Of a stretch of DNA of 34,564 bases, positions 645 to 24,283 are shown one piece after another. Made by a program: the position numbers and the translations under genes. The notes under the pieces are model-generated. The model was given only the letters and a program-made list of their open reading frames with translations, did no database searches and was not told the DNA's origin. This DNA is from Geobacteraceae bacterium. Its GTDB lineage: Bacteria; Desulfobacterota; Desulfuromonadia; Geobacterales; DSM-12255. The stretch spans positions 1 through 34,564 of the forward strand of contig JACABD010000036.1 of assembly GCA_013377075.1 (NCBI GenBank), read 5' to 3'. Within the stretch, counting starts at the first letter, position 1; each line of letters starts with the position of its first letter.

Positions 645-983
645 CTACCTGCTAAACCGCTCCAACAGCAGGTCTTCCAGATTCCTTCTGCTGTCCAGCA
701 CCGCCATGACAAAGAGACAATCCCCTTCAGGACGGTAGATGATTCGCCATGGAGCAGTAATCAGCTCCCGATATTGGATTATGCCGTTTTGGTGGAGTTC
801 TGGGACGATTCGTCCCCTGTCAGGGAGGTTGCAAAGATTTTCGGCGCGTTCTCGAATCCGCTCAAATACCGAGAAAGCCGCTTCAAGATTATCATCCGCA
901 ATAAAGTCAACTATGGCGGCGAGATCTTCTTCAGCGGTTTTTGTCCAGAGAACCTTGAAAGGGATTTGCCGTTTTGCGGTCAT
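645..983 (-). CDS. ParE/RelE-family toxin (type II toxin-antitoxin)
   Basis: The 112-residue basic protein has the ParE/RelE fold signature: an N-terminal beta strand (FKVLWTKTAEEDL), a helix pair (IVDFIADDN...AAFSVFERIRERAENL), then the strand block with GRIVPEL, YRELITAPWRIIYR and VMAVLDSRRN near the C terminus. The YRELI...PWRIIYR and LDSRR segments are typical of the ParE branch. ParE toxins act on DNA gyrase and RelE toxins cleave mRNA on the ribosome; sequence alone does not separate the two securely. The start codon overlaps the antitoxin stop by one base (TGATG), so the two are translationally coupled, with the antitoxin made first as is usual. Confidence 0.88.
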   Translation of the reverse strand: MTAKRQIPFKVLWTKTAEEDLAAIVDFIADDNLEAAFSVFERIRERAENLCNLPDRGRIVPELHQNGIIQYRELITAPWRIIYRPEGDCLFVMAVLDSRRNLEDLLLERFSR

Positions 984-1270
984 CAGACAGTCTCAGCCCG
1001 CTTTTCCAGACGCTCCCTGATTCTGGCAAAGACCTCGTCCTGCCCGGAATGACGCCCGTGGCGGATATCTTCTTCACCCTGAACCATCAACTTCAGTAGA
1101 GCTATGGTGTTACGCATGCTTTCATAACTTGCGGTATCTTGCAAAACAGCGCGAGCCTGGCCGTTCTGGGTTATCACCACCGGGCGTCTTGTCTCGTTCA
1201 CCTGCTGCAAAAGGTTGGCAGCATGGCTTTTCATGTATGTGATCGGTTGAATATCGTTTGCCAGATTCAT
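983..1270 (-). CDS. Phd/YefM-family antitoxin
   Basis: The 95-residue protein has the Phd/YefM DNA-binding N-terminus: ITYMKSHAANLLQQVNETRRP followed by VVITQNGQARAVLQDTASYE. The C-terminal half (LKLMVQGEEDIRHGR and on) is the part expected to fold around and neutralise the toxin. The frame stays open upstream to 1312, but the ATG at 1270 has a strong GGAGGT site five bases before it, so it is chosen. The antitoxin and toxin genes overlap by one base. A near-perfect 22-bp palindrome just upstream is the expected autoregulatory operator. The locus sits 60 bp beyond the end of the pfaC-like gene, and the pair probably has its own promoter. Confidence 0.88.
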   Translation of the reverse strand: MNLANDIQPITYMKSHAANLLQQVNETRRPVVITQNGQARAVLQDTASYESMRNTIALLKLMVQGEEDIRHGRHSGQDEVFARIRERLEKRAETV

Positions 1271-1284
1271 AGCACACCTCCAGT

Positions 1285-1306
1285 CTGAATAAGGTACCAT
1301 ATTCAG
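1285..1306. promoter_or_regulatory. Palindromic operator of the toxin-antitoxin operon
   Basis: This 22-bp sequence (arms CTGAATA and TATTCAG, centre GGTACC) matches its own reverse complement at 20 of 22 positions. It lies 15 bp upstream of the antitoxin ATG and overlaps the proposed -10 of the promoter at 1291-1319. Phd/YefM antitoxins are known to repress their own operons by binding such palindromes, so this is the likely operator. Confidence 0.7.
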
Positions 1307-1319
1307 ATCCACTTAACAA
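1291..1319 (-). promoter_or_regulatory. Candidate promoter of the toxin-antitoxin operon
   Basis: On the minus strand TTGTTA (1314-1319) and TACCTT (1291-1296) are separated by 17 bp. The -10 is poor (3 of 6 consensus positions), but it sits inside the palindrome, which is the arrangement expected for repression by the antitoxin. Confidence 0.4.
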
Positions 1320-1329
1320 CAGGGCGAAT

Positions 1330-4300
1330 TCAGAGTGACGAAATCCTGACCGAAAAGTCATTCATCTGGTAGATGGTTTTGCCATCGACGGAGAGGAAGC
1401 CTGCGGCTGTCAGGGTGCGGCTGGTGTCGTCCAGAGCCGTGACCCAGGCGGTGACGGTGACGAGGCTGTTGGTCGGTACGATCTGGCCGCGGTAGAGCCA
1501 GCGGTGGGTTGTATTGAGGGCTGCCACTTCGAAGAGATCACCTTCCTGCCATCCCCAGCGCTCCAGAGCGGCAAACTTGAGGAGCTGCATGAAGGATTCG
1601 AGCCCCAGCGAACCGGGTGTGACCGGGTCTTCATAGAAGTGTGCCTTGAAGAACCACTCATCAGGGTCAACATGCTTGATACCGCGGATATAGCCCAGAC
1701 TTGCCGGGCCGCCGTCGGGGATGAAGCTCTCGATCCGGTCAATCATCTGCAGCTTCTTCTCCGGGAACGGTGCATCGGTCGGGTAGTCGAGGCTGCGGCT
1801 CCGCTCTGCTTCTGCCTCTGTGGGGAGGTACGGTTTTGCATCGCGGATGCCGACCTGATTGGCAAGGGCCTCTTTGGAGAAGAAGCCGAACATGGTCTCA
1901 CCTTTGTAGAGAATCCCTTTTGAGTCGGCAACGGTGAAATCGAACTCCTGAATGATCATGCCGCCGCTGGTGGCGGCCTTCTTCAGGGTTGCGCTGCAGG
2001 TGAGAACGCCGCTCTCTGGAGTAACCGGCCTTAGCTGAATGGCGCTGCCGCCGAGGTTGCGGAAGGAGATGTCCACCTGGCTCTGCAATGCCGAGCCCAC
2101 ATAGGCGGCAAGCCAGCCGCAGGGCTGCAGCGCTGCCTCAAGCAGCACCGAGAACGGCATGCGCAGCTGCCGCTCCACAGCAAAGAACCAGTCATCAACC
2201 GGCAGGTCGTATTGCGCCTCCACAAATGCCCCGGCGGTCATCTGCCACGGCTCACCTTTCACAGCCGTCACCCGGTCCATGAACTGGAACGGCGGGCCGG
2301 GAAGGCGGGCGATCTTGCGCCCTCCATCGGCGTCGAAGACTCTGTACCGATCGCCAAATCCGACCGAAGGATTGCCGTTACTGTAGGCAAGAATCTGGGC
2401 TTTGGTGTAGACCGCCGGTTTGCGGGGGTCTGCAGCAGTTGTACCGGTCGAATTCTGCTGCCACAAAGCCAGCAGCTTCTCCTGCGTCGTGCCGGTCAGC
2501 CGTGCCGACATGGTGCTGATCTCGACGATCGGCTTGCCGTCGGCGTACATGAGGGCGTCGCAGATGACGTAGGGCTCGGGGCGGTAGCCAAGCTCGCGGA
2601 TAGAGACTTCATAGGTAACGACTTTTGTCGTCTCCAGTACCTGACCGCGGCACTTGAGGCCGCTGGCAACGCCCGGCACCGGTTCAAAAACGCTGCTGCC
2701 GTCATTCTCTGCCACCCACCCCATTCTGAGGAGGAAGATCCGCAGGGTGTGCATGCAGCATTCGTACATCAGTGTCCCGGGCATGACCCGGTCATCGACA
2801 AAGTGGCAGGTGATAAACCAGTCGTCAGGGCGGATATCAGCCTCGGCCCGAATAAATCCTTCGCCGTAGCGGCCGCCACGGGGCTGCAGATCCATGACCC
2901 GGTGGACAAGCTGCATCCTGCCACCCGGAATGGTGAGGGGGTTATTGATGCTCAGACCTGAAAAGAGCTCGCCAAAGCAGCCTTGCAGATCGCCGCTGCG
3001 CAGAAGATCCAGCTGCTGCCCGGTGAAGCTCTCCTGCGCCATGGGCACCAGTTCCTGCCAGTCTGCCGGGCGTATACCGCTGGTGGGGCGCATATCCACG
3101 GCAGGGCGGACGATCCCCTTGCCGGCATCCAGCTCTTCGGCAGAAAAGAAACCGGCGCAGCCGTCACGCATGGAGAGAAGCGGCTGACCGTTAACGGTTG
3201 CTTCGAAGAAGAAACGGAACAGCCAGGTATCACCCTGACGGAAGAAACGCTCGATGTGGATATCGTAGCTGATGATCTCGCCCGGCTGGGGCAACCCACG
3301 GTGGAAGGTGACCACTGCGTCGAGCAGGCGGTAGACAGCCATCCCTTTGGTGATGAAATCGATGCCGAGGTAGCCTGAGAGGAAAAGATCGGCCTGACCG
3401 GCCTCCACGGCGATGCAGGTCGGTATCCTGTTGCCGTCCAGATACCATGCCCCCTGGTGAATGTCGTGCTCGGTGACGACCCGTCCATGGGTCATTGACA
3501 GGGGCTCACCTTCGAGGGTGACGATCCGGTCAACCAGCATCAGCGGTTCATCGGGGAGGCGAACCCGGGTCGGGAAACTGTCGGCTCCGGCAAACTTTTC
3601 ACCGAGCATCTTCGCCACCGAGCCGATGGCAAACTCCATACACATATCGCGGTCGAAGACGCACGGAGGAGCAGTTTTCCCCTCGCCCTGGGGGAGAGGG
3701 TGGCCGAAGGTCGGGTGAGGGGGAACATCCCCGCCAAGGGCCTGCTGCAGGGCTATTTCGAGAGAGAGTGCCTGTGCCATGGAGCTGTTCAGACTTTCAC
3801 TGAACCTTAAGTATGAATCGTGGGCCCCGATCTTTGCATCCTGTGCTGCTGCAAAACCCTGCAGCAGAGGCGACGACTGCTGCGACTGCGGTGACTGCTG
3901 GTGCTGAATCACCTTCGTTGGCAAAGGCTCTGCTTTCGGCTCCGCACGAACAACTTTTACCAGCGGCAGAGGCGGCGGTGACAGGGTTTCGCTCCCCCGC
4001 TTGATGAAGAGGGCGTTTGCTTTGACTGCTGCACCGGAAATTACCGGGGCAGGCAGGCAGAAGCTACTCAGATCCAGCGGCACACGCTCGGCAATGAGAC
4101 TTGCCAGAAGGCGCAGGATCGCTCCTTCGCCGTCCAGTTGGGGCGAACAGGCGGAGCGGGAGAGATGGGGTTTGCCTTCGAGAATCTGGCCGATCATCCG
4201 GCTGCAGGATGCTCCCGGCCCCATTTCTAAGAAGATCCGTACCCCTTCGTTGTAGGCGGCGTTGATCACTGCCGGATAGTTGATCCCTTCCAGCGCCTGG

Positions 4301-7300
4301 GCAAGAATGGCGTCGGCAGCGCTCTCGCGGCTGACTTCATAGGCCGCACCCTCGGCGCCGCTGTAGAAGGTGACTCCGGCTGGCGGGTTGGTTTCGAAGA
4401 GATGGAGGTTGCGGTACGGTTCGGCCACCTCCCGGGCAACCTCGCAGTGGACGGTGGTCACCCCGGAGAGCGGAAAGAACGGCGCACCGAGGATGCCGAC
4501 GACCCTGCGAACCCCTTTGGCATCGCCGCCGATAACGCATTCATTCTGGGTGTTGATGATGAGCAGATACACCCTGGTGGTCATGCGGATGGCGCGGCGC
4601 ACCTCTCTGGCCGGGGCGCTGACAACACCGATCTCCCACTCGACTCTTTTACCTTCCGGCAGACCCCAGGCCCGGGCCGCTGCACGGCACTCTCCAGCAA
4701 GGTCGTCTGTGAAGAGCGTTGAATCGTACATCTGCAGGAGCATGCTGTCCCGCTCTTGCCATGTGCCGGACGCGAACAGCGATGCCGATTCACCGAGGCT
4801 GTAGCCGATATATGAAGAAGGGGTTACACCAAAACTTTTGACAATGTCGCTGACAGCACAGCCGGTTGCCACCTGGCCGAAGATGACGGCACGGTGGTCA
4901 AAATCGATCTCATCCTGGGGAGCGCCGTTCCAGAAGACTTCAGGCTGAAACTGGCTGCGCAGGTAGTCGTTTTCGCTGTCCTGACGGCGGAAAATCTCCG
5001 GCCAGAGGGTGGAGAGCTCCATTCCCATCTTCGGGAAGTGATTGCCCGAACCGGGAAAGACAAAGGCGATTGTGCCCTCCTGCCCAAGGGGCTGCGGGTT
5101 GAAAAAGAGCCGGTCACGAAGCTGCGGGTGCTGTGGTGGCGCTGTCTCGGAGGCGATAGTCAGGTCGGCCAGATCAAGCAGGGCTGCCAGCTCATCCCCC
5201 TCTTTGGCGACAAAAGCAATGGCAAGGGGGTCTTCGTGTGCATAGCTCAGTTCAAGGGATTTAGCGGCAAGATCTTCTGCGCTGCCGCCATTGACGGCTG
5301 CTGCCAGTTCATGGAGCTTGGCGGCAATATCATGGCGATCAAGGCCGGAGATGGCAAAAAGCTGTTCCCCTCCCCTGCCAGGTTCCCTGCCAATGACGAT
5401 CTGCCGGTCAAGCCTCTGTTCATCGCTCTCTTCAAGGAGCAGATGGGCAGAAGTGCCGTCAACACCGCTTACGCCGACCGCGGCATAGCGTGGTCCCTCG
5501 ACCCGGTTCCGCAGCCAGTAGCGTGCCTCTTCGGGGAGATAGAAGGGTGATGGTTGCAAAAGCCCGTCAATGGGGGCAGCAGCGGCCTTTGACGGCGGAA
5601 TCATTTCAAAGTGGAGCGCCAGGGCGGCGCGTACCAGTGAAGCCATGCCGGAGGCGGCACCGCAGTGGCCGGTAAACCCTTTGACAGCGCCAAGGGCAAC
5701 GCGGCGACTCTCCCTGACCATGGCCGGAATCTCTTTGCTGTTTTGGAAATGACGTCCCAGGGCGGCAATCTCGCTGCGATCATCTTCCTTTAAACCGCTG
5801 GCACTGCAGTCGATGAAACCGATCTGTGAAGGGTTTACCGCAGCTTCTTTGCAGGCTTTGGCAAAGGATGAGGCGATGGAACTTTCATCAGGATGGACAA
5901 TAGTGCCGCTGGAGATGCCGACCCCTTTGATGACCGCATAGACCCGGTCACCGTCGCGGCGGGCATCGTCAAGCCGCTTCAGTACCACAGTCGCAGCGCC
6001 GTCACCGCATAGGGCGCCGCTGCTGGCGGTGTCAAAGGGGGTTGCTTCACCGGACAGGGCAAGTTTTCTGCTCAGGTGATGGCCGAGGACGGCGCGCAGG
6101 TCACCGGCAAGATCGACGGCGCCGACAACGGCGCGATCAATTTCCCCTTTCACCAGGAGCCTTGTGGCTGCGGCAAGGGAGGTGATCCCCGATGAATCCT
6201 CACTGGAGAAGGTGAAGCTTGGACCGCCGCACTTGAATTCACGGGCGATCCTGCTGGCAACGATGTTGCCGAGGGCCCCCATTGTCCGGTTGGCGGTCAG
6301 CGCCGGTGAAACTGCATCTTTAAGGGCTTCGGTCCAGCTATCCAGCTCGTCTTTGGGGAGCCCCCTTGTCTCGGCCCAGGTTTTCACCATGCGGGGGAGA
6401 GTCCAGCGCAGGCTGAAGCCGGTGCTGTTCAGATCGAGGGCTATACCGATGAAGACGCCGGTGTTGATGTTGCCGCTCCGGTCCAGTCCTGCATCCTCAA
6501 AAGCGGCAGCGGCGCTCTCCAGCATCAGCAGCTGCTGAGGGAGCATTTCCTGAAGCTCAAGTGGCGGAATGCGGAATTTGTCGGTGGAGATGGTAACACC
6601 GTCCAGGTATCTCCCCTTGAGGTAGCCACCGTTCAGGAGCCCTTTCAGCCAGTTCGAATCCTGGGCACCCCACCATTGACGGGGGTCTGCAGGCTCTGGC
6701 GGCGCGGTAACACCAAAGGCGATATCCTGAAACTCCTTCAGGGAAGTGGAGCCTGCCAGACGGGCATCCATACCGATAATGGCAATGTCGACCGCTTCGG
6801 GCGCAGCAGGTGACGCCTGCCCCTGCCAGTTGTTGGCAACGGCAATGGTGGCGGCCATATCGGCCATCTCCGGGAGCCACTCTTCAACAAGCAGATGGGC
6901 ATTGATGCCGCCAAAACCAAACGCGCTGACAGCGGCACGGCGCGGAATGCCGTCCCCTCTTCGTTGCCACTCCTCTCCCTTCGAAAGGACGCGAAACGGG
7001 CTACTTTCCAGTTCCATCCCCGGCTGGGGTGCGTTGAAGTTGGCAGTCGGCGGGAGAATTCCTGCGCGCATGGCAAGAAGAGTCTTGGTCAGGGCTGCTG
7101 CACCGGCTGCGGTCAAGAGGTGACCGATGTTGGACTTGACCGAGCCGATTACGCAGCTTCTGCCATTATCCATTCCGCTCCAGAGCTCTTTGAGGCTTGC
7201 CACTTCGGTGGCGTCGCCAACCGGGGTGCCGGTGGCATGACACTCGATCAGGTCGATGTCGTCGGGCCTCAGACCGGCAGAGCAATAGGCGGCGTTCATT

Positions 7301-8229
7301 GCCCTCAGCTGCCCTTCGGACATGGGCGCAAGGAGGCTGCCACCCACATCGTTGGCAAGACCTGCCCCGCGGATGATGCCGTAGATCCTGTCACCATGGG
7401 CGATGGCGTCTTCAGTCCGCTTCAGGAGGAAAATACCGGCACCTTCACCAACCACGAGACCGTCACCGGCGGCATCAAAGGGTGAACAGATACCACGTTT
7501 GGAGAGGGCGCGGAGCTGGGAGAAACCCATCTGGGTGTAGAGCGGATCAGGACGGGAGACGCCGCCGGAGAGCATGGCATCGGCGCGGCCGGAGAGGAGT
7601 TCCTCTGACGCAAGTTTTATGGCATAGAGCGATGAGGCGCAGGCTGCATCAAGGGTACAGGCGCCGCCGCCAAGCCCCAGGGCATAGGCAAGGAGTCCTG
7701 CAGGGAGTCCGGCCGGATATCGGTTGAGCGGATCGGTGGAGAGTTTTGTCCGGCTGGTCCCGAATAGTTTCTCTTCCAGGGTTTTACCGATTATCTCCCG
7801 TGAAAAAAGCGATGATTTTTCCGTTGGGAGGGCAAGGTTACCGATAATGACGCCGATGCGGGATGGATCAAGCGGTGCGGTGATGCCATCGGCATAGGCC
7901 TGTTTCCCTGCATGGAGAAGAACATGGAAAAGCGGGTCAAGACCGGAGGGGATTTTCGGTTCATTGGCAACGCCTGTCGAATGGGGCGTGCGCGGGGTGC
8001 CGGCAAGAAAGCACCCCTTTTTCGAGTAAACCGAATCCTTTTTACCAGCCTCGGGAGAGTAGACGTCATCAGGGGAGACCGCCCATCTGTCAGACGGGAT
8101 ATCACGGCTGGCTGACTGGGCAGAGAGGATGTTTTCCCAGAAACGATCAAGATCAGGGGCATCCGGGTAGATGCCCCCGATGCCGACAATCGCTACGGTA
8201 CCAAAAGGGGGGGTAACTTTCTGTTTCAT
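1330..8229 (-). CDS. pfaC: PfaC-type PUFA synthase subunit: KS-CLF-AT-DH (Pfa3-like)
   Basis: This 2299-residue protein is the largest subunit of the synthase. Domains in order: ketosynthase about 10-450 with the full triad Cys197 (DAACASS), His331 (HATGT) and His370 (NIGH); chain-length-factor-like KS about 480-932, where the cysteine position is Glu677 and the first histidine is Ser809 while His855 remains; acyltransferase about 1050-1385 with GYSLGES (Ser1144) and His1261; a low-complexity linker about 1400-1520; then four FabA-like hotdog halves, about 1556-1700, 1765-1915, 1975-2120 and 2150-2299. The second and fourth halves keep catalytic-type motifs (CHFVDDRVMPG with His1809; AHFYEDPVTPG with His2197); the first and third are degenerate, as in double-hotdog dehydratases. 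In marine clusters the AT is the separate PfaB; here it is fused as in myxobacterial Pfa3, but the AGPAT found at the end of that protein is absent. The ATG follows the pfaA stop by 17 nt with no clear Shine-Dalgarno, so translation may depend on coupling. Confidence 0.92.
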   Translation of the reverse strand: MKQKVTPPFGTVAIVGIGGIYPDAPDLDRFWENILSAQSASRDIPSDRWAVSPDDVYSPEAGKKDSVYSKKGCFLAGTPRTPHSTGVANEPKIPSGLDPLFHVLLHAGKQAYADGITAPLDPSRIGVIIGNLALPTEKSSLFSREIIGKTLEEKLFGTSRTKLSTDPLNRYPAGLPAGLLAYALGLGGGACTLDAACASSLYAIKLASEELLSGRADAMLSGGVSRPDPLYTQMGFSQLRALSKRGICSPFDAAGDGLVVGEGAGIFLLKRTEDAIAHGDRIYGIIRGAGLANDVGGSLLAPMSEGQLRAMNAAYCSAGLRPDDIDLIECHATGTPVGDATEVASLKELWSGMDNGRSCVIGSVKSNIGHLLTAAGAAALTKTLLAMRAGILPPTANFNAPQPGMELESSPFRVLSKGEEWQRRGDGIPRRAAVSAFGFGGINAHLLVEEWLPEMADMAATIAVANNWQGQASPAAPEAVDIAIIGMDARLAGSTSLKEFQDIAFGVTAPPEPADPRQWWGAQDSNWLKGLLNGGYLKGRYLDGVTISTDKFRIPPLELQEMLPQQLLMLESAAAAFEDAGLDRSGNINTGVFIGIALDLNSTGFSLRWTLPRMVKTWAETRGLPKDELDSWTEALKDAVSPALTANRTMGALGNIVASRIAREFKCGGPSFTFSSEDSSGITSLAAATRLLVKGEIDRAVVGAVDLAGDLRAVLGHHLSRKLALSGEATPFDTASSGALCGDGAATVVLKRLDDARRDGDRVYAVIKGVGISSGTIVHPDESSIASSFAKACKEAAVNPSQIGFIDCSASGLKEDDRSEIAALGRHFQNSKEIPAMVRESRRVALGAVKGFTGHCGAASGMASLVRAALALHFEMIPPSKAAAAPIDGLLQPSPFYLPEEARYWLRNRVEGPRYAAVGVSGVDGTSAHLLLEESDEQRLDRQIVIGREPGRGGEQLFAISGLDRHDIAAKLHELAAAVNGGSAEDLAAKSLELSYAHEDPLAIAFVAKEGDELAALLDLADLTIASETAPPQHPQLRDRLFFNPQPLGQEGTIAFVFPGSGNHFPKMGMELSTLWPEIFRRQDSENDYLRSQFQPEVFWNGAPQDEIDFDHRAVIFGQVATGCAVSDIVKSFGVTPSSYIGYSLGESASLFASGTWQERDSMLLQMYDSTLFTDDLAGECRAAARAWGLPEGKRVEWEIGVVSAPAREVRRAIRMTTRVYLLIINTQNECVIGGDAKGVRRVVGILGAPFFPLSGVTTVHCEVAREVAEPYRNLHLFETNPPAGVTFYSGAEGAAYEVSRESAADAILAQALEGINYPAVINAAYNEGVRIFLEMGPGASCSRMIGQILEGKPHLSRSACSPQLDGEGAILRLLASLIAERVPLDLSSFCLPAPVISGAAVKANALFIKRGSETLSPPPLPLVKVVRAEPKAEPLPTKVIQHQQSPQSQQSSPLLQGFAAAQDAKIGAHDSYLRFSESLNSSMAQALSLEIALQQALGGDVPPHPTFGHPLPQGEGKTAPPCVFDRDMCMEFAIGSVAKMLGEKFAGADSFPTRVRLPDEPLMLVDRIVTLEGEPLSMTHGRVVTEHDIHQGAWYLDGNRIPTCIAVEAGQADLFLSGYLGIDFITKGMAVYRLLDAVVTFHRGLPQPGEIISYDIHIERFFRQGDTWLFRFFFEATVNGQPLLSMRDGCAGFFSAEELDAGKGIVRPAVDMRPTSGIRPADWQELVPMAQESFTGQQLDLLRSGDLQGCFGELFSGLSINNPLTIPGGRMQLVHRVMDLQPRGGRYGEGFIRAEADIRPDDWFITCHFVDDRVMPGTLMYECCMHTLRIFLLRMGWVAENDGSSVFEPVPGVASGLKCRGQVLETTKVVTYEVSIRELGYRPEPYVICDALMYADGKPIVEISTMSARLTGTTQEKLLALWQQNSTGTTAADPRKPAVYTKAQILAYSNGNPSVGFGDRYRVFDADGGRKIARLPGPPFQFMDRVTAVKGEPWQMTAGAFVEAQYDLPVDDWFFAVERQLRMPFSVLLEAALQPCGWLAAYVGSALQSQVDISFRNLGGSAIQLRPVTPESGVLTCSATLKKAATSGGMIIQEFDFTVADSKGILYKGETMFGFFSKEALANQVGIRDAKPYLPTEAEAERSRSLDYPTDAPFPEKKLQMIDRIESFIPDGGPASLGYIRGIKHVDPDEWFFKAHFYEDPVTPGSLGLESFMQLLKFAALERWGWQEGDLFEVAALNTTHRWLYRGQIVPTNSLVTVTAWVTALDDTSRTLTAAGFLSVDGKTIYQMNDFSVRISSL
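3679..3723. repeat. REP-like palindromic insert within the pfaC linker
   Basis: This roughly 45-bp stretch encodes residues 1503-1517 of the PfaC-like protein (PPHPTFGHPLPQGEG). It contains near-palindromic C/G blocks (CCCTCTCCC and GGGCGAGGGG on the minus strand). The peptide and its DNA resemble widespread bacterial REP-type intergenic repeats, often read as PHPxxxPLPQGEG when translated. It lies in frame, in the Ala/Pro/Gln-rich linker between the AT and the first dehydratase hotdog, where an insertion would be tolerated. No other copy occurs in this window, so the call rests on recognition. Confidence 0.55.
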
Positions 8230-8246
8230 GGCAGGTCAGGCACTTG

Positions 8247-11200
8247 TCAGAGTGCCCCCGTGCCGCTCAGCTCAGGGCGGTTTTTGCTGAACGCTACCCC
8301 GAGGCTGGCATCGATGGTGCACTCGTAATCTTCAAGACGGGCCACCAGCTTGCCGCTCTGGCGATCAAGGAATTCGATATTTGCATGGGCACTGTTCTGA
8401 CGCTCTTCGGTCACCCTGATGACGATCATCACGCCGTCTTTGGGGAATGCGTCCTGGTACTGACGGTATCTGCCGGCAAAGCAGGGGAGCGAGCCAAAGC
8501 CGTAGCGCTCGAAGCTCCAGAGGATCATCATCTGGAATGCCGTGTCAAGAAGGAGCGGATCGGTGAGCCAGCTGCTGCGTAGTGGCTGTTTGAACCATGC
8601 CCCGGGGTTTGGTGCTTTTCTGGCAATTGCGGCGATCCCCTTTTCCGAGCAGCCGGTGACAGTTTCAATGCCGTGCAGATCAGGGCCGTGGAAGAGTCTG
8701 CCGCTATCATAGACCTGGCTGCTGTCATGGGGATAGGGGGTCATCGGGATCTCCTTGATGGAAGGAAGTCCTTCAGGCAGCCTGGTGGCAAGGATGATTT
8801 CTGCCCTGGCATGAAGAAGTGACCTGCCGCCACCGTTCACTCCGGTAAGTTCCACCGGCACGATGTAAAAGGAGTCCCGCTTCTCTGCCTTGCCGGCCAT
8901 GACGGTCAGCTTGCAGCTTTTCTCCTTTTCGAGCACAACACCTTTGCAGATGCGCAGGTCGTTGAAACCGTGGAAACGGAGCCCGGGATTGCCATGCAGA
9001 GCAGCATGGGCAAGCCATTCGGCGATCACTGCCATGGGGAGCACTGCTTTATTGTCAATGATATGGGAGCGGAGAAACGGATAGTCACCGAGATTGAGAT
9101 TTATGGCCAGCGCCTCGGTGAGGCTGCGGGTCTTCTGTGATACCGCTTCTGACGGGGCATGGTCGTTCTCTGCCAGGGCGATGATCTCCACCGGAGCAGA
9201 TTCTGCGGCAATCTCCCTGACAAGGAAGTCCCCCCCCTCGGCAAGGCCGATAAGGCCGATACCTTCGCCATCAAAAAGCTTTTTCAGAGAAGGCGTCACC
9301 ATGCCGCCATCCCAGGGACCCCAGTTAATACTTACGGTGCGGCATTCAGGCCGCTTTCGTGACTCATCCTGGGCAATCTTGTTGAGTACCTCGTTGGCCA
9401 CCGCATAGTCGACCTGTCCGGTTCTGCCGAATCTGCCGGTGGTAGAGGAGAAGAGTGCTATCACCTTGAGATTGTCCCTGGAGGTCGCTTCGAGAAGGGA
9501 GCGGAGACCCGACACCTTGGTTCCGTAGACAGAGGCGAACTGCTCTCTGGATTTGTCGGTGATGAGCCTGTCGGCAAGTACCCCGGCGCCATGGACAATG
9601 CCGCTGATGGGGCCCACAGTGGAGCGAATCTCATTGAAAAGAGCGGCAACCTCATCGCTGTTTCTGATGTCGACAGTGCGGTAAAGAGCCCTGCCACCTT
9701 CGGCGGCGATCCTGTCAAGTGTCTCCCGCAGCTCCCGACCGGCAACAACCTGCTGATAACGTTCTTCAATATCTTTCGGATGGAGCTTGCCATCGGCATT
9801 TTCGAGGATGGCGCGCTTGATCTTCGGCTCTTCGCTGAGGCCTGTCAGCCAGTCCGGCTCCGCTTTCGGCATGGCTGTGCGGCCAAGCAGCAGAAGTGTC
9901 GGATTGCAGGCCCTGGAAAGAGCCTGCGCAGCTGCTGCGGTTACGCCACGGCCGCCGCCGGTGATAACCACCACATCATCACTGTTCAGCGGATAGCGGT
10001 CAGGTGTCGGCGCAGCAGGGAGATCGATGAGACAAAGGGCTGTCGTGCCGCTTGCAGAGAGGCCGCGCTCAACCGGCCCGCTTTTAAGCAGCTCGTCGGC
10101 GGCTGCTGCTGCCGCGCTCTGTGCATCAGTAAATTCGCCAAGATCGAGGGCCGCGCAGTTTACATCGGACCATTCATGGGCTGCGGTTTTGCTTAGTCCG
10201 GCAAGCCCCCCTGAAGTAGGATCTGCAAGGGTTGATCCCTCCAGTGACCCGAAAGCACCGTCAAGACGGGAGATGGTAGCAAAAAGCGCCCCGCCATCTT
10301 CGCCCGAATGGCGCAGAGTCGATGCAGCTCTTTTCAGAAGGAGGAAGGACTCTTCGAGAAAAACATCGTCACATCCCGACTGGGGGGCGATGATAACCAG
10401 CCCGGAGATACGGGCGCTGGCAAAGGCATCCTCTTCATCAACCTGGATAAGACGCGGCTTCGCGCCACGATTGCTCAGCTGGGAGTAAAGTTCGGCAACA
10501 AAGGGTGAACCGTCATCGGTAATGAGAAGCTCGCCGTCTGCAAGAGCCAGCTGCTCGCGGCCCGTGCTGCCAAGTGGCTGATGGATGAGGGCACGGCGGT
10601 TAATGGGCGCGGCCTTGGCAGTTGGTATGACGGTTTCAGCCACAACGGCGGCGGTTGCTACCGATACTGGCGCAGCAGCCGTTGCAGGCTCACTGCTCTG
10701 GCCATTGCCGAGGAAGTTGGCTATCTCGCCCAGGGTGTTCAATGTCCCAAGATGTTCAGGGCCGATAACCGGTGCTTGCGGCAATCGCTCCTGCACAGCC
10801 GAGAGAATTTCCACCCGCTTGATTGAGTCGATGCCGAGATCGGCGTCAAGTCCCATGGATAGGTCGAGCATTTCCGTCGGGTAGCCGGTTTTTTCGCTGA
10901 CCACGGCAAGAAGGACCGATGCGGTATCGGCTGTGGCAACGGCAGTCACGGGGGATGACGCAACTGCTGCACCCTGTCCGAGAAATGCGGCAATCTCGCC
11001 GAGGGTGTTCAGGGTTCCGAGATGCTCGGGACCGATAACCGGTGCGCCCGGCAGCTTTTCCTGCACGGCGGAGAGGATCTCGACCCGCTTGATGGAGTCG
11101 ATGCCGAGATCGGCATCCAGCCCCATGGAGAGATCGAGCATTTCCGTCGGGTAACCGGTTTTTTCGCTGACGACGGCAAGGAGGGTTGCTGCAGTGTCAA

Positions 11201-14200
11201 CCGCCGGAGCGCTGGCTGCGACAGGTGCAGCGGATGTTACTGCAACCCCGCCGGTTCCGAGAAATGCGGCTATCTCGCCAAGAGTGTTCAATGTTCCGAG
11301 GTGTTCCGGGCCGATAACCGGTGCTCCCGGCAGTTTCTCCTGCACAGCCGAGAGAATCTCGACCCGCTTGATGGAGTCGATGCCGAGATCGGCGTCCAGC
11401 CCCATGGAGAGATCGAGCATCTCTACGGGATAACCGGTTTTTTCACTGACGACGGCAAGGAGGACAGCGGATGTGTCAACTGCCGGTGCACTTGAAGCAA
11501 CCGGCGCAGGTGCCGACACTGGCGCAGCAGTGGGCACAGCTGCCGGGGTAAAACTTGAAGCTGCCGTCGGGGCAGGCTCAAATCTGACCGGCTCGTATAC
11601 GGGAAGAGCAGCTGCAACTCCGCCTGCAAGCACCATCTGCTGACTCTCCAAAAGGGTCTGGAAGGTTCTGGCAGCCCGCTCCTGTCCGTCGAGGAACTGG
11701 CGGTGGAGCTTTGCCGTATCCTCCTGCATCTTCTGGAGAAGGGCCATGCTCTCTCTGGTCACTCGTAGCGACTCTGCCAGGGCATCGCGGGAGACCGGAG
11801 CTGCTCCCGGTTGGCTGCTGACTACCGGCCCCTGACTGCTGACTACCTGTTTGACAGGCGAAGGAGCCCGCTTCTGCCTCGGAGTGACATAATTCGCTCC
11901 GCAGAGTGGTATTGTCATTGCCGGTTTGGCCGACTTCTTTGGGGGAATGAAATCTTCGTCCCACTTGGCCAGATGGAGGGTTTGGCCGCTGGCAACCAGC
12001 TGGGCAAGAGCCTTTGCCAGATCAACGATTCCTGACTTCTTGCCGTTTGAGGCATCAATGGCAACGCTTAAGAATTCCCGCTCGCCGAGGATCGATTTTA
12101 CCAGACCGGTGAGACGTGCTCCGGGACCGATTTCGACAAAAGTCCGTACACCGTCTGCATACATCGCCTCGATTTCGGCAACGAACTCAACGGCCGAGGC
12201 GAGCTGGCCGGCGAGAAGCTGCCTTGCGTCTGCCTCTGCAGATGGATAGATGGCGGCGCTGCTGTTGGCGTAGACCGGTGTACTGCCCGGATTGATGGTG
12301 ATATTTGCAAGGGCGGCAAGGAACGGCTCTGCCGCACCTGCCACCAGCGGGCTGTGAAAAGCTGCGGCAACGGGAAGTTTTTTTGCAGTAACCCCCCGTG
12401 CGGCCATGATCGCGGCTCCGCGCTCTATCTCGGCTGTGGCGCCGGATAGCACGGCCTGTGACGGAGCATTTTTGTTGGCAATGACCAGATCAAGCCGTTC
12501 CTCGGCGATGATCGCCTCGACAGTGGCCAGCGGTGCGGAGACAGCCAGCATGCTGCCGCGATCGCCGCCATCGCCTGCCATCAGCTTGCCACGCAGGCGC
12601 GAGAGACTGTGCAGAGCGGCTTCATCAATCCTGCCCCCTGCACAGAGTGCGGTCAGTTCGCCGTAGCTGTGACCGGCAGCAGCTTCTGCTGTAAAGCCGA
12701 ATGACTCCAGAAGGCGCAGGGCGCCGATGCTCACCGCGCCGATGGCAGGCTGGGCGCAGTCCGTTGCCCGGAGGCTCTCTTCATTGCGTGTTGCTGCCCC
12801 ATCGGTAAAGTCGGAAAGAGGATAGATAAGCTCGGAGAGGAGTCTGTTTGAGCTGTGTTCAAAGCCGTCATCAGCTGCGGCAAGGGAGTCGGTCAGCTGG
12901 GGAAAGGCGCAGGCCAGATCCCGGAGCATGCCGCAGTACTGGGAGCCCTGACCGGGGAAGAGGGCGGCTGTCCTGCCCGCTGGTTTTTCCGCTGAGTAGC
13001 AGATGCCGTCGGGTGTGCTCCAGCTGCCTGCCGGGCTGCTTTTCAGTAGTGAAAGAGCCTTGGCTGCCAGGGCAGGAAGGTCACTCTTTCCGTCTTCGGC
13101 AACAAGGATCAGGCGGCAGTTGGCAGACGCATCGAAGCATTTGCGGGCATTATGGGCGAAGCTGCGCAGGTCAAGCCACGGAGCAGCTGTCGGCAGGGTG
13201 GAGAGGGCCGTTTCAATCCCTTTGGCATCGTCCGCAGTAAAGGGGATGATCTGTACTTTACCGTCCCAGTCTGTGGCTACTCTTTTCGGAGAGTATTCTT
13301 CGAGAACGGTGTGGAAGTTGGAACCGCCAAAGCCAAAGGCGCTGACAGCGGCGCGGCGCGGCATGCCGTCCCGGGTCAGCCAGGGGCGCTTTTCTGTGGA
13401 AATATAGAAAGGGGTGTTCCCCCTGGTAACTTCGTCCAGCGGTTTTGTTACCTTGATGGTTGGTGGAATGACTTTATAGTGCAGGGCCATCGCTGCCTTG
13501 ATCAGTCCGGCAGCACCTGCAGAAGCTTTAGTATGGCCGATTTGCGACTTTACCGAGCCAAGGGCGCACCATGGCAAGTCGCTCTCGCCATAGACATCAC
13601 GCAGCGCCGAGACTTCTACGGCATCGCCGACTTTTGTACCGGTACCATGGGCTTCGATCAGGCCGATACTCTGTGGATCTGTTCCGGCGATTGAGTAGGC
13701 ATCGAGCAGCGCCCGTTTCTGCCCTTGTGAGCTGGGGGCGTAGATTGCATCCCCCTTGCCGTCGCTGGAGGAGCCGATGCCGCGGATAACCGCGTAGATC
13801 CGGTCGCCATCGCGCTCGGCATCAGACAAGCGCTTCAGTACTACCACGCCGAGACCTTCGCCGAGAATAGTGCCGTCACCATTGGCGTCAAAAGGTTTGG
13901 CATTGCCGCTTGGCGAAAGTGCGGGAGTCTTGCTGAAGCACATGTACATGAAGATGTCGTTAAAGGTATCAATACCGCCGGTGACAACCATGTCAGATTT
14001 GCCGGAGAGGAGCTCAAGGCCAGCCAGATGCAGGGCGCTGAAGGAGCTGGCGCAGGCTGCATCAACGACGCAGTTGGTGCCGCCGAGGTCAAACTGCTTG
14101 CTGATTCTTCCGGCAACGACATTGCCGAGAAGTCCGGGGAAGGAGTTCTCCTGCCAGGGTACGTAACTGTCGGATATGCGCTGCACAACGTCTTCGGCGG

Positions 14201-14693
14201 TCGTGTCGTCAACGCCGGCGTCTTTCAGGGCATTGCGCCAGATTGGGTGGCCGAGCCTCGCGCCGAGGGGGATCACCAGCTCAAGGGTTCCGGTGACGCC
14301 AAGAATGACGCTGGTTCTGCTCCGGTCAAACTGCTTGTCAGTGCCGTAACCGGCATCGGTGAGCGCCTGTCCGGCAGCAACCATGCCGAGGAGCTGGGAG
14401 GTATCGATGGCCTCCAGGGTGTTCGGCGGGATATTGTACTCCATCGGATTGAACTGGAGTGGATCGAGGAAACCGCCACGCTGGCCATAGGTGAAATCGG
14501 GCTTTTTCTGATCGGCATTATAGTAATCAGCCGGGTTCCAGTGGGTTGTGGGGATTTCGCTGATCGCATCGACCCCTTCGCGGATATTTGCCCAGTAGGC
14601 GGACTTCTCAGCCGCTTTCGGGAAAAGACAGCCGATACCGATTATCGCCAGCCGGTCTTTCCCTTCAGCTACTGCTTGGTTATCACTTCTCAC
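8247..14693 (-). CDS. pfaA: PfaA-type PUFA synthase subunit: KS-AT-ACPx3-KR-DH (Pfa2-like)
   Basis: The 2148-residue protein carries the chain during elongation. Domains: ketosynthase about 13-466 (Cys214 in DAACASS, His349 in EAHGTGT, His387 in QIGH); malonyl-type acyltransferase about 575-905 (GQGSQ at 581, GHSYGE with Ser676, AAFHSP with His780); a helical linker about 968-1025 typical of these synthases; three acyl carrier domains about 1073-1146, 1166-1239 and 1256-1329, each with LGIDSIKR and phosphopantetheine serines at 1107, 1200 and 1290; ketoreductase about 1570-1840 (VVVITGGGRGVT, Ser1750, Tyr1763); and a PKS-type dehydratase about 1860-2130 with His1877 and Asp2050 (LLLDTAFQ). 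The start is GTG, supported by AAGGAG eight bases upstream, and it overlaps the pfaD-like stop by 11 nt. Marine PfaA proteins commonly have five or more ACPs, so three is few. Activation needs a phosphopantetheinyl transferase encoded elsewhere. Confidence 0.94.
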   Translation of the reverse strand: MRSDNQAVAEGKDRLAIIGIGCLFPKAAEKSAYWANIREGVDAISEIPTTHWNPADYYNADQKKPDFTYGQRGGFLDPLQFNPMEYNIPPNTLEAIDTSQLLGMVAAGQALTDAGYGTDKQFDRSRTSVILGVTGTLELVIPLGARLGHPIWRNALKDAGVDDTTAEDVVQRISDSYVPWQENSFPGLLGNVVAGRISKQFDLGGTNCVVDAACASSFSALHLAGLELLSGKSDMVVTGGIDTFNDIFMYMCFSKTPALSPSGNAKPFDANGDGTILGEGLGVVVLKRLSDAERDGDRIYAVIRGIGSSSDGKGDAIYAPSSQGQKRALLDAYSIAGTDPQSIGLIEAHGTGTKVGDAVEVSALRDVYGESDLPWCALGSVKSQIGHTKASAGAAGLIKAAMALHYKVIPPTIKVTKPLDEVTRGNTPFYISTEKRPWLTRDGMPRRAAVSAFGFGGSNFHTVLEEYSPKRVATDWDGKVQIIPFTADDAKGIETALSTLPTAAPWLDLRSFAHNARKCFDASANCRLILVAEDGKSDLPALAAKALSLLKSSPAGSWSTPDGICYSAEKPAGRTAALFPGQGSQYCGMLRDLACAFPQLTDSLAAADDGFEHSSNRLLSELIYPLSDFTDGAATRNEESLRATDCAQPAIGAVSIGALRLLESFGFTAEAAAGHSYGELTALCAGGRIDEAALHSLSRLRGKLMAGDGGDRGSMLAVSAPLATVEAIIAEERLDLVIANKNAPSQAVLSGATAEIERGAAIMAARGVTAKKLPVAAAFHSPLVAGAAEPFLAALANITINPGSTPVYANSSAAIYPSAEADARQLLAGQLASAVEFVAEIEAMYADGVRTFVEIGPGARLTGLVKSILGEREFLSVAIDASNGKKSGIVDLAKALAQLVASGQTLHLAKWDEDFIPPKKSAKPAMTIPLCGANYVTPRQKRAPSPVKQVVSSQGPVVSSQPGAAPVSRDALAESLRVTRESMALLQKMQEDTAKLHRQFLDGQERAARTFQTLLESQQMVLAGGVAAALPVYEPVRFEPAPTAASSFTPAAVPTAAPVSAPAPVASSAPAVDTSAVLLAVVSEKTGYPVEMLDLSMGLDADLGIDSIKRVEILSAVQEKLPGAPVIGPEHLGTLNTLGEIAAFLGTGGVAVTSAAPVAASAPAVDTAATLLAVVSEKTGYPTEMLDLSMGLDADLGIDSIKRVEILSAVQEKLPGAPVIGPEHLGTLNTLGEIAAFLGQGAAVASSPVTAVATADTASVLLAVVSEKTGYPTEMLDLSMGLDADLGIDSIKRVEILSAVQERLPQAPVIGPEHLGTLNTLGEIANFLGNGQSSEPATAAAPVSVATAAVVAETVIPTAKAAPINRRALIHQPLGSTGREQLALADGELLITDDGSPFVAELYSQLSNRGAKPRLIQVDEEDAFASARISGLVIIAPQSGCDDVFLEESFLLLKRAASTLRHSGEDGGALFATISRLDGAFGSLEGSTLADPTSGGLAGLSKTAAHEWSDVNCAALDLGEFTDAQSAAAAAADELLKSGPVERGLSASGTTALCLIDLPAAPTPDRYPLNSDDVVVITGGGRGVTAAAAQALSRACNPTLLLLGRTAMPKAEPDWLTGLSEEPKIKRAILENADGKLHPKDIEERYQQVVAGRELRETLDRIAAEGGRALYRTVDIRNSDEVAALFNEIRSTVGPISGIVHGAGVLADRLITDKSREQFASVYGTKVSGLRSLLEATSRDNLKVIALFSSTTGRFGRTGQVDYAVANEVLNKIAQDESRKRPECRTVSINWGPWDGGMVTPSLKKLFDGEGIGLIGLAEGGDFLVREIAAESAPVEIIALAENDHAPSEAVSQKTRSLTEALAINLNLGDYPFLRSHIIDNKAVLPMAVIAEWLAHAALHGNPGLRFHGFNDLRICKGVVLEKEKSCKLTVMAGKAEKRDSFYIVPVELTGVNGGGRSLLHARAEIILATRLPEGLPSIKEIPMTPYPHDSSQVYDSGRLFHGPDLHGIETVTGCSEKGIAAIARKAPNPGAWFKQPLRSSWLTDPLLLDTAFQMMILWSFERYGFGSLPCFAGRYRQYQDAFPKDGVMIVIRVTEERQNSAHANIEFLDRQSGKLVARLEDYECTIDASLGVAFSKNRPELSGTGAL
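10707..11477 (-). repeat. Tandem ACP-encoding repeats (three units)
   Basis: Three copies of a unit of about 222 bp at 11256-11477, 10977-11198 and 10707-10928 encode nearly identical carrier domains separated by Ala/Pro/Thr/Ser-rich linkers. Spacing between the modified serines is 93 and 90 residues. The DNA of the units is also very similar, including the block around CCGCTTGAT(G/T)GAGTCGATGC, pointing to duplication kept alike by gene conversion. Copy number may vary between strains and can collapse in short-read assemblies. Confidence 0.9.
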
Positions 14694-16242
14694 TGAAATA
14701 CTCCTTCAGCTCATTATCCTGAACAGGGGTGATTTTTACAGCTTCGGCAGGGAGTTCAACCCCCTGGGCACGGAGCATCGCCACTCTGGTAAGAAAAGCT
14801 GCTCCATAAAGAATGTTTCTGGCAACGGTGACAACCCGCCGCTCTTTTGCCTCGGCAAGGAGAGAGCCCGCTGCCCACTCATTGAAAGCACCCATGGCAG
14901 GACCTGCCCAGACCTGATAATCCATCTTGCGGGATGGATGACCGTCCTTGGCCCAGTGGGCCCCCTGTCCCAGATACCATCTGAAGACCAGTGCCATGAG
15001 ATGCTTCGGCTCGCGTTCTGCCCGCTCCACCTGTTTCGGGTCACGTTTTTCAAAGAAGGCTCTGGTGTCACGCCAGATTTGATCAAGTGGCGCAAGGAAA
15101 AGGGTCTTCTCCAGCTTCTCCCGCTCCGCAGCCGGAATGTCGTCGATGCTGGCGCAGCTTTTGTAGATTTCATAGAGCTTCTGAGCCCGCATCGGGAACA
15201 TTGTACCACGTTTCAGTACCTGTACAGTCACACCCATTTCAAACATGTCGGCTGCCGGAGCCATGGTGACATCGGCCTGGCGGGTTTCCACCAGCATTGC
15301 CCGGACGGTGTCCGAGGTCCCTGACTCGATGCAGGCCTGATTGACCGAGCCGGTGACGATATAGGCTGCTCCCATGGCAAAGGCCGCTGCTGCCGAAGCC
15401 GGAGTGGAGATGCCGCCGCCAAGGCCGACGCTGAGGCGGCATCTGTAGCCTTGTTCCTGCTGCATCCGCTCTGCAAGGGACTTGATGGTGGGGAAGAGGA
15501 CGATGGCCGGACGATTGTCCGTATGTCCGCCGGAGTCAGCCTCTGCCGTAACATACTGGGCCATGGGGACTTCTTTTGCCATCTCGGCCTGCTCAGGGGT
15601 TATCTCCCCTTTTGCAACCAGTTCCTTGAGGAACTTTTCCGGCGGCGGCGAGAAGAAGCGGGCGGCAAGCTCTTCCCGTGATACTTTGGCAATGATCCTG
15701 TTTGGGGTATGAACCGTGCCGTCAGCAAGGCGGCAGATGCCGTGAAGGCGGTATCTGACAAGGGTCAGAGTCAGGGAGAGAAAGGCGGAAGCCTCGATCA
15801 GCCGGACACCTTTTTTTATGTAGAGGGATACCAGGGCCTCTTCAAGATCGGGTTCATGGGGGGAGTGGATCAGGTTGAAGCCGAAGGGGGTGTCCCCAAG
15901 GGAGCTTTTCAGCCTGTCAACGGCAGCCTCCACTTCATGGAGTGGCAGACCGGCAGCGCCAAAAAAGCCGAGCATCCCGGCTTTGCCGAACTCTTCGGCC
16001 ATCAGCGCCGAGCTGATCCCCTTGGCCATGGAGCCGCCAATGTAGGGATAGCGGATGCCGAGATCCTTGCAGAAACGGCTGCAACCAAGGTTTGCGGGGA
16101 GAACAGGCGGAGCAAATGCGTTCAGACCAGCGGTCATTGAGGCAGGCTCCCCGGATGCATTGATGGAGAGTGCAGAGCCTATTTTGCGAAGAGCATCAAC
16201 TGAAGCAGCGCTTGCAGCTACAGTAAAAACGGTATTTCCCAT
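14683..16242 (-). CDS. pfaD: PfaD-type enoyl reductase of the PUFA synthase (Pfa1-like)
   Basis: The 519-residue protein belongs to the FMN-dependent PfaD/trans-acting enoyl reductase family, related to nitronate monooxygenases. Visible signatures are IGGSMAKGISSALMAEEFGKAG near 67-88, FGFNLIHSP, the segment TAEADSGGHTDNRPA in the barrel, and GLGGGISTPASAAAAFAMGAAYIVTGS, which should bind the flavin phosphate. The C-terminal third (FEKRDPKQVERAEREPKHLMALVFRWYLGQGAHWA) is the helical extension specific to PfaD. It would reduce enoyl-ACP intermediates in selected cycles, which governs where double bonds remain. It is the first gene of the operon; the ATG has an AGGTGA site six bases upstream. 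Its end overlaps pfaA by 11 nt. Confidence 0.93.
   Translation of the reverse strand: MGNTVFTVAASAASVDALRKIGSALSINASGEPASMTAGLNAFAPPVLPANLGCSRFCKDLGIRYPYIGGSMAKGISSALMAEEFGKAGMLGFFGAAGLPLHEVEAAVDRLKSSLGDTPFGFNLIHSPHEPDLEEALVSLYIKKGVRLIEASAFLSLTLTLVRYRLHGICRLADGTVHTPNRIIAKVSREELAARFFSPPPEKFLKELVAKGEITPEQAEMAKEVPMAQYVTAEADSGGHTDNRPAIVLFPTIKSLAERMQQEQGYRCRLSVGLGGGISTPASAAAAFAMGAAYIVTGSVNQACIESGTSDTVRAMLVETRQADVTMAPAADMFEMGVTVQVLKRGTMFPMRAQKLYEIYKSCASIDDIPAAEREKLEKTLFLAPLDQIWRDTRAFFEKRDPKQVERAEREPKHLMALVFRWYLGQGAHWAKDGHPSRKMDYQVWAGPAMGAFNEWAAGSLLAEAKERRVVTVARNILYGAAFLTRVAMLRAQGVELPAEAVKITPVQDNELKEYFSEK
14701..14706 (-). promoter_or_regulatory. Ribosome binding site deciding the GTG start of pfaA
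   Basis: AAGGAG on the minus strand lies seven to eight bases before the GTG at 14693, inside the last codons of the pfaD-like gene. No ATG is equally well placed, which supports the GTG start and coupled translation. Confidence 0.75.
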
Positions 16243-16391: not shown

Positions 16392-16811
16392 TCAGGACTC
16401 TTCCTCTTCGCTTGATGCAATCTCACGATAAACCCTGTCTTCTTCGAAGCGTTTGGTCTGTGCCTGGAGCTTCTCCAGGTCTGCTTTGCACTTCACGCAA
16501 AGGCGGGCAAACGGCATGGCTTTGAGGCGGCCAAGAGGAATCTCCTCTTCACAATCCTCGCACACGCCGTACTCACCTTCATCAAGTCTGGCAAGTGCTT
16601 CATCGATGTTTCTGATCTTCTCCCGCTCACGATCTCCAAGAAGAAGGGTAAGTTCCCGGTCGCGTTCGTTTGATGCCTGGTCGTATATGTCACCGCTCGG
16701 CTCGTCAGTAAGGGACTCGGTACCGGATTTGAGTGTTTTCCCGATCTCCTCGAATGCCTCTTCCTTGAGTTTGAGCAGAACTTCTCTCATTTCCTCTGCT
16801 TTTTCAACCAT
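16392..16811 (-). CDS. DksA/TraR-family zinc-finger transcription regulator
   Basis: The 139-residue acidic protein has the DksA architecture: an N-terminal coiled coil (about 1-80) and a C4 zinc finger with Cys84, Cys87, Cys105 and Cys108 (CEDC...CVKC). The coiled-coil tip carries D41-I-Y-D44-Q-A46, matching the DxxDxA motif by which DksA enters the secondary channel of RNA polymerase. DksA-type proteins modulate rRNA and amino-acid promoters together with ppGpp. The size, four cysteines and tip motif favour a functional DksA homologue, possibly one of several paralogues, over a short TraR protein. The ATG is preceded by CGGAGC. It is followed by a terminator, so it is probably not part of the pfa operon. 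Confidence 0.9.
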   Translation of the reverse strand: MVEKAEEMREVLLKLKEEAFEEIGKTLKSGTESLTDEPSGDIYDQASNERDRELTLLLGDREREKIRNIDEALARLDEGEYGVCEDCEEEIPLGRLKAMPFARLCVKCKADLEKLQAQTKRFEEDRVYREIASSEEEES

Positions 16812-16927
16812 TTGTTATTGCTCCGAATCTTCTGAATTTTAAAAATTAATATCTGCCAAAAAGCGGATGAATAATACAGCAACAGGGGGAGTTGTCAAGA
16901 GTAAAGCCCTCTGAAAAAGTTAATCCG

Positions 16928-23494: not shown

Positions 23495-24283
23495 TCATTT
23501 CGGGGTAATTTCCTTTTTCCAACCAACATAAACCGCAATTGGTACGGTATACATTACCGTTTCACCGTCTCTCCGAGCATTAATTCCAAGACGGTCTATT
23601 CCGATGTCATTTGTGACCATGTCTCTCAATTTCGGTTCGTCTCCTGGTTTTGGAAAGGATGCCCGTAGTTGAGTTTCCAACTCGATATTGACGCCATAGG
23701 TGCTCTGTCGGCAATCAAGCAGACCGGAATCTTGAAAAAACGCAGCAAACTCTTCATGAGTCAAGGCGTGGGTATGGGAAGGATCGCGCATGATTTCCAG
23801 TTGGTCGTAAAACTCAGACTTTGATGATTCCACTGCTACGTCTGCAACCATCACGCGACCACCCGGGCGGCACACCCTTATCATTTCCGACAACGCCTTT
23901 TCCGGTGTCAGCAAGTGATGAAAGCTGTAACGGGTTATCACCAGTGAAAATGAGTTGTCGGCATAGGGCAGCGGGACCGCTTCTCCAATGGCCCAGGTTA
24001 TGTTTTCAAGCTGCTGTTCCTGCTGACGCTTCTTTGCCTGCTCAATCATCGCCGGTGTAATGTCTACTCCGGTCACATGCCCGGCATGCCGGGCGAATTC
24101 GCAGGCGACCAGCCCCGGACCGCACGCAACGTCCAGCACAGTATCATCAGAACAAACGCCAGAAAGATTGATGAGTGTCTGCATAGCATCCAAGTGCCCA
24201 GGCACTTGTGCAAACGGAATGGCCTGGCGCGAGAATTGTTCGTCAATTTTGGCTTGATGCATCTGTTCTTTTTGACGGTTCAT
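23495..24283 (-). CDS. Class I SAM-dependent methyltransferase (UbiE-like)
   Basis: The 262-residue protein has the methyltransferase motifs in order: motif I VLDVACGPGLVACEFARHAG, the acidic residue ending strand 2 in VTGVDITPAMIEQAKKR, then ITWAIGEAVPLPYADNSFSLVITRYSFHHLLTPEKAL and CRPGGRVMVADV. It resembles UbiE/Methyltransf_11 enzymes acting on small molecules; substrate unknown. The frame extends upstream to 24394, but the ATG at 24283 has an excellent AAAGGAG site seven bases away, and the extension would run into the divergent AraC gene. The shared 77-bp region with the AraC-type regulator at 24361 suggests that regulator controls this gene. Confidence 0.88.
   Translation of the reverse strand: MNRQKEQMHQAKIDEQFSRQAIPFAQVPGHLDAMQTLINLSGVCSDDTVLDVACGPGLVACEFARHAGHVTGVDITPAMIEQAKKRQQEQQLENITWAIGEAVPLPYADNSFSLVITRYSFHHLLTPEKALSEMIRVCRPGGRVMVADVAVESSKSEFYDQLEIMRDPSHTHALTHEEFAAFFQDSGLLDCRQSTYGVNIELETQLRASFPKPGDEPKLRDMVTNDIGIDRLGINARRDGETVMYTVPIAVYVGWKKEITPK

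Follow-up and report, generated by a model that had tools for sequence, protein, structure and literature searches.

What does a Pfa-type megasynthase make in a relative of Geobacter, and which enzyme primes its acyl carrier proteins (ACPs)? These questions are raised by an operon in the window, the stretch of 34,564 nucleotides that we analysed from contig JACABD010000036.1 of a Geobacteraceae bacterium (assembly GCA_013377075.1). Three long minus-strand open reading frames (ORFs) of 519, 2148 and 2299 codons follow one another in the order pfaD-pfaA-pfaBC, with an overlap of 11 bases between the first two and a gap of 17 bases between the last two (Table 1). We confirm that they encode a Pfa-type (secondary lipid) synthase, whose anatomy had been described correctly in an earlier sequence-only reading of this DNA. 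As a Type I synthase it probably makes polyunsaturated chains, which in this order of bacteria usually pass to OleA and end up in long polyunsaturated olefins, C31:9 being an example. The interest of the locus lies in the question of its phosphopantetheinyl transferase (PPTase) and in a clean co-occurrence of pfa and ole genes, the remainder being mostly known.

As expected of such a synthase, PfaA and PfaD both exceed NCBI's curated cut-offs, PfaA carries three ACPs in tandem, and PfaBC combines a pair of ketosynthase (KS) and chain-length factor (CLF), in which the second KS is inactive, with FabA-type dehydratase (DH) repeats. All three ORFs are full-length and active-site motifs are present in their proteins. 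We rejected an ordinary polyketide synthase (PKS) or fatty acid synthase (FAS) because the curated Pfa models score best, and in profile and structure matches KS and CLF score with Pfa and not with PKS or FAS. The domain calls also agree with the order previously read, an enoyl reductase (ER), then KS-acyltransferase (AT)-ACP-ketoreductase (KR)-DH, then KS-CLF-AT-DH, and with the claim that the AT is fused behind the CLF, as marine pfaABCD does not have it. This PfaB-like AT, which belongs to the PfaBC fusion typical of Type I, falls under the curated cut-off of the PfaB model and, at 30.3 bits, slightly under the 32.7 bits of PF00698. The second KS unit of PfaBC lacks the active-site Cys, as is expected for a CLF. 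Against solved structures the top match of PfaBC was 6riw_A ('ORF10', query 11-890), the sole match among the best 60 of 144 with its best stretch across both KS and CLF; we take it to be the KS-CLF of Moritella PfaC. Pfam recognises four FabA-type stretches in PfaBC with the looser of its thresholds and three with the stricter.

PfaA contains three PP-binding stretches, each with its serine. The sequence-only reading had counted three ACPs correctly but had regarded them as unusually few, which we reject. A profile built on the three ACPs of this PfaA counts between one and five in 51 full-length PfaA proteins, that of the window among them: one in 1 protein, two in 6, three in 11, four in 14 and five in 19, a set that omits the split PfaA of genome G069, the PKS of G035 and PfaA proteins cut by contig or region ends. 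Besides its Type I cluster, G035 has a second pfaD-family gene (locus L103, 670 bits), whose neighbours match PfaA only in part and at no more than 31-32% identity and so look like a polyketide synthase.

The operon adds one more case to the Type I secondary lipid synthases, and most of what it shows is already known. Shulse & Allen 2011 (PMC3098273) describe Type I as the pfaBC-fusion cluster of Geobacter bemidjiensis, G. lovleyi, G. uraniireducens, Pelobacter propionicus, Desulfuromonas acetoxidans, Gemmata and others. Like the clusters of G. bemidjiensis, G. uraniireducens and Pelobacter propionicus in that account, the one studied here has a fused pfaBC and a related, delta-proteobacterial host (a Geobacter relative, as had been supposed) with ole-type genes in its genome. 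Named PfaBC matches include Geobacter sp. AOG1, Geotalea sp. SG265, Geomonas limicola and Desulfuromonadales, the placement in Type I being made from fusion, gene order and kin. The gene order and the fused PfaBC are common to relatives, in several of which ole genes and a PPTase come after pfaD-A-BC. The order D-A-BC is also that of the G. bemidjiensis tandem, given in a 2016 review as pfaD, A, B, C, oleA-D, pfaE (PMC4882568); there ole and pfaE are part of the tandem, whereas here two contigs other than that of the operon carry the ole-type genes, and the assembly yielded no Sfp-type PPTase. PfaBC relatives amount to at least 545 confirmed stretches, and the scan reaches records titled Planctomycetota, Elusimicrobia, Gammaproteobacteria, Verrucomicrobia and Gemmatimonadetes. 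Two of these relatives are titled Candidatus Anammoxibacter (L198, whose stretch shows no ole gene) and Candidatus Kuenenia (L253, with oleA-D), although some titles of metagenome-assembled genomes look unreliable (another is Klebsiella pneumoniae).

The description of the operon as myxobacterial-type with a reduced parts list was thus too strong, since it fits the separate Type I of PMC3098273. It does resemble the myxobacterial Pfa1-2-3 of Aetherobacter and Minicystis (Type L in PMC4882568) in having the ER first, the AT within the third protein and, as described in PMC4882568 and PMC6731297, a PPTase gene outside the cluster. However, Pfa3 ends in an acylglycerol phosphate acyltransferase (AGPAT), which the third protein of the window lacks, and for this reason we rejected Type L; moreover, the close relatives of the window are Geobacter kin and their partner genes are ole. 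The AGPAT is indeed absent, as first noted, but it is not a missing part: none of the eight PfaBC proteins scanned, window included, has one, and the review confines the fused AGPAT to the myxobacterial cluster (PMC4882568). With the marine pfaABCDE clusters (Types A and B) the operon shares, as read from its sequence, the KS, CLF, AT, KR, tandem ACP, FabA-type DH and ER activities, and Shewanella makes a polyunsaturated hydrocarbon via Ole (PMC6463001). Type A differs in its separate pfaB and its 4-6 ACPs (PMC3098273 section 5), against a fused pfaBC and three ACPs here.

The ole partners were found elsewhere in the genome, where the sequence-only reading could not see them: an OleA- and an OleB-like gene are neighbours on contig 35, and an OleC- and an OleD-like gene are neighbours on contig 85. 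Within the window they are invisible because the contig begins at window base 1. The OleA-like protein scores 498.3 bits against a cut-off of 285 for the 3-oxoacyl-ACP synthase III model, and its PDB matches carry the same name, several of them presumably being Xanthomonas OleA. We then examined 77 genomes, namely this one and 76 relatives. A pfaD gene is found in 61 of them and a close OleC likewise in 61, and the two genes are jointly present or jointly absent in 75. In three genera (g8, g9 and g15) that otherwise have both, pfaD and OleC are gone together from single members, which, informally, speaks against mere shared ancestry. Linkage is also frequent: among 80 named PfaBC loci, at more than 60 bits and on the fetched stretch only (many contigs being short), 51 have an oleA-like gene, 45 oleB-like, 47 oleC-like, 42 oleD-like and 61 at least one of these, while 26 have an Sfp-type PPTase.

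This pattern suits what has been published. Type I was suggested to supply olefin precursors, as G. bemidjiensis makes the hydrocarbon C31:9 (PMC3098273 section 10; the hydrocarbon also appears in PMC4882568), and OleA has been linked to Pfa ACPs in vivo (PMC6463001). In the proposed pathway, PfaA would carry the chain on its three ACPs and the KS and CLF would extend it, while the KR, the FabA-type dehydratase/isomerase pair and PfaD would leave methylene-interrupted cis double bonds with no need for oxygen. OleA would take the polyunsaturated chains from the Pfa ACPs, as in Shewanella (PMC6463001), and join two of them head to head, and OleD, OleC and OleB would then convert the product to a long polyunsaturated olefin, e.g. 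C31:9. Chain length, double bonds and product are all predicted, and the chains are most likely destined for a long membrane hydrocarbon in this bacterial group. The hydrocarbon precursor foreseen by the sequence-only reading is probably right. Double bonds made independently of oxygen would fit an anaerobe, as we take the host to be from its relatives; such a route to a polyunsaturated hydrocarbon had already been proposed for G. bemidjiensis.

Several observations weigh against this assignment. The ole genes sit on contigs other than that of the operon. The OleC-like protein passes a general ligase model (722.1 vs 478) but stays under the cut-offs of the olefin-specific models, and the OleB- and OleD-like proteins stay under those of all models listed for each, so that all three are named for their resemblance to genes linked to pfa in relatives. 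Co-occurrence fails in 2 of the 77 genomes, G010 with pfaD only and G012 with OleC only. A pair of genes for a ParE-type toxin and a Phd/YefM-type antitoxin (645-1312, minus strand) adjoins pfaBC on its downstream side, close to the end of the contig. Finally, no Sfp-type PPTase (PfaE) was found in the genome as assembled, where the sole PF01648 match lies on another contig and passes AcpS models, and the two matches to PF17837, the Sfp N-terminal model, are both sub-threshold. E. coli has AcpS. Marine Pfa synthases in E. coli nevertheless gave no EPA (eicosapentaenoic acid) or DHA (docosahexaenoic acid) without pfaE, and overexpressed entD rescued EPA (PMC2901515).

Another way to view the operon is through the priming of its ACPs, perhaps by AcpS, which is the only real novelty of the system. 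The earlier observation that no PPTase gene lies nearby holds, and extends to the assembly; the visible flank, only ~1.3 kb of it downstream, contains neither an AGPAT nor a PPTase gene. Since a nearby PPTase accompanies the published secondary lipid synthase types 'most often' rather than always (PMC3098273 section 8), its absence lowers the claim to a complete marine-like system but not the claim to Type I. We sorted the PF01648 matches of the 77 genomes by comparison with AcpS and Sfp-type references from fetched loci and with a profile of pfa-linked PPTases. The 61 pfaD-bearing genomes divide into 19 with AcpS only (this one included), 4 with an Sfp-type enzyme only (G004, G008, G011 and the divergent G042) and 38 with both, the matches having been fetched singly for the 19 and the 4 and in part for the 38. 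Among the 16 genomes that lack pfaD, an Sfp-like match was seen in two (G012 and, weakly, G046), and a second match in G054 fell under the cut-off. In one genus (g2), all four genomes (G004, G008, G011 and G012, at loci L080, L173, L174 and L087) have a single PPTase match, of Sfp type, and AcpS was not found.

An alternative to AcpS is an Sfp-type PPTase that our models miss because of its divergence or that falls into a gap of the assembly. The genome comprises 126 contigs at a completeness of 95.5%, and that of the operon stops ~1.3 kb past pfaBC, in a region where ole genes and a PPTase are frequent among relatives. However, the same state recurs in 19 of the 61 pfaD-bearing genomes, 16 of which are listed as at least 90% complete, and these include assemblies of one contig (G018) and of two (G036). 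At E < 0.01, a broad profile of 24 Sfp-type sequences matched the AcpS gene and nothing else in every one of the 19; beyond that threshold it gave one match each in G001 (E 5.6) and G005 (E 0.8). It did recover the Sfp-type genes of G008, G022 and G042, but as a control this was not blind, since the 24 rows include these genes or close kin of them. A hidden Sfp-type enzyme is, on this evidence, unlikely.

To explain the AcpS-only state on a PfaD tree of the 61 genomes, 8 changes are required, of which well-supported branches force at least 4, in what is a quick tree with SH-aLRT (Shimodaira-Hasegawa-like approximate likelihood ratio test) support only and 19 of its 58 inner branches open. We also considered whether the ACPs are adapted to AcpS, and rejected this, as neither the motif nor the charge of helix II gives any sign of it. 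The 47 ACPs read from 15 AcpS-only genomes (none was read from G001, G005, G009 and G010, and three of 50 matches, one each in G023, G036 and G060, are spurious, being located far from the ACP array) all carry DSIKRVEI, the same motif as in relatives with an Sfp-type enzyme. Helix II had a mean net charge of 0.73 (standard deviation, sd, 0.37) in the 15 AcpS-only genomes, 0.88 (sd 0.27) in the 38 with both and 0.94 (sd 0.11) in the 4 with Sfp-type only, a comparison that ignores relatedness and includes the three spurious matches.

Taken with the E. coli results for pfaE, the AcpS-only genomes imply either that AcpS is broader here than in E. coli or that another enzyme acts. Colwellia pfaABCD without pfaE still shifted C16:1 vs C18:1 (PMC5029812), and our searches of open-licence PMC papers, in listings of at most 25, gave none on AcpS priming of Pfa ACPs. 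We regard as evenly balanced the proposal that several lineages of the order lost a dedicated Sfp-type PPTase and that the housekeeping AcpS primes a PUFA-type (polyunsaturated fatty acid) megasynthase, whose ACPs keep the helix II motif of their relatives, with one genus of the family showing the reverse, a single Sfp-type enzyme and no AcpS found.

The synthase could instead make free PUFA destined for membrane phospholipids, with the PfaB-like AT releasing the product and a separate PlsC-type acyltransferase transferring it. PfaB is the terminal acyltransferase in marine systems (PMC12895367), the search for a distant acyltransferase gave seven PF01553 matches elsewhere in the genome, and the operon and ole genes do not share a contig; yet the agreement of pfaD with oleC in 75 of 77 genomes and the frequent linkage in relatives make this outlet distinctly improbable. 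That the operon is decaying and no longer functional, as ole genes on two other contigs, a PPTase not found and a toxin-antitoxin pair downstream might suggest, is very hard to credit when its three ORFs are full-length with active-site motifs present and the PPTase-less state recurs in 19 genomes with ACP motifs conserved where readable.

Table 1. Features of the operon and its upstream neighbour in window coordinates; cut-offs of TIGR models are NCBI's curated values.
Feature	Position	Strand	Evidence
pfaD-type enoyl reductase (519 aa), operon's first gene	14683..16242	-	TIGR02814 611.8 bits (cut-off 449.25)
pfaA-type KS-AT-ACP-ACP-ACP-KR-(PS)DH, 2148 aa, GTG start	8247..14693	-	TIGR02813 (omega_3_PfaA) 1619.3 bits (cut-off 1010.1)
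PfaA KS, Cys in DAACASS, His in EAHGTGT and KSQIGHT	13296..14657	-	domain scan, motifs
PfaA AT, GHSYG	12084..12971	-	domain scan, curated model, motif
PfaA ACP 1, serine in GIDSI (aa 1104-1108)	11256..11468, approximate borders	-	domain scan, motif
PfaA ACP 2, serine in GIDSI (aa 1197-1201)	10980..11186, approximate borders	-	domain scan, motif
PfaA ACP 3, serine in GIDSI (aa 1287-1291)	10704..10916, approximate borders	-	domain scan, motif
PfaA KR	9309..9971	-	domain scan, motif
PfaA C-terminal PKS-type dehydratase (PS-DH)	8316..9107	-	PF14765 above cut-off; PF21089 under its cut-off
pfaBC fusion KS-CLF-AT-DH'-DH-DH'-DH, 2299 aa, without AGPAT	1330..8229	-	domain scans, structure match, motifs
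PfaBC KS	6871..8196	-	domain scan, motifs (Cys and two His)
CLF, KS-like, without active-site Cys (FSSEDSS)	5425..6792, approximate borders	-	structure match, motif
PfaB-like AT, GYSLGES	4060..5079	-	TIGR02816 82.9 bits, under cut-off 144.3
FabA-type hot-dog repeats; His motif in two (CHFVDDRVMPGT, AHFYEDPVTPGS), absent in two	1354..3642, approximate borders	-	domain scans, motifs
DksA-like zinc-finger gene just upstream of pfaD	16392..16811	-	DksA models match under their cut-offs

Window base 1 is also base 1 of the contig, which limits the view downstream of the operon. On the upstream side, a scan found no terminator-like site upstream of pfaD, and its single minus-strand promoter-like site (16871-16898) lies upstream of the DksA-like gene, not of pfaD. 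A similar-looking gene, judged by eye, stands upstream of pfaD in the congeners G003 (L037:6331-6750) and G001 (L152:3505-3999). Elsewhere in the window, three class I methyltransferase genes lie close together on the minus strand (23495-27255).

With this operon, a pathway to polyunsaturated lipids that was already known and is probably anaerobic gains a further host. The joint distribution of pfa and ole over the 77 genomes favours the idea, put forward in 2011, that olefin synthesis is supplied by Type I. The distribution of PPTases, in turn, makes the common assumption that Pfa ACPs need an Sfp-type enzyme testable in vitro, and the answer could matter for moving Pfa synthases into new hosts.

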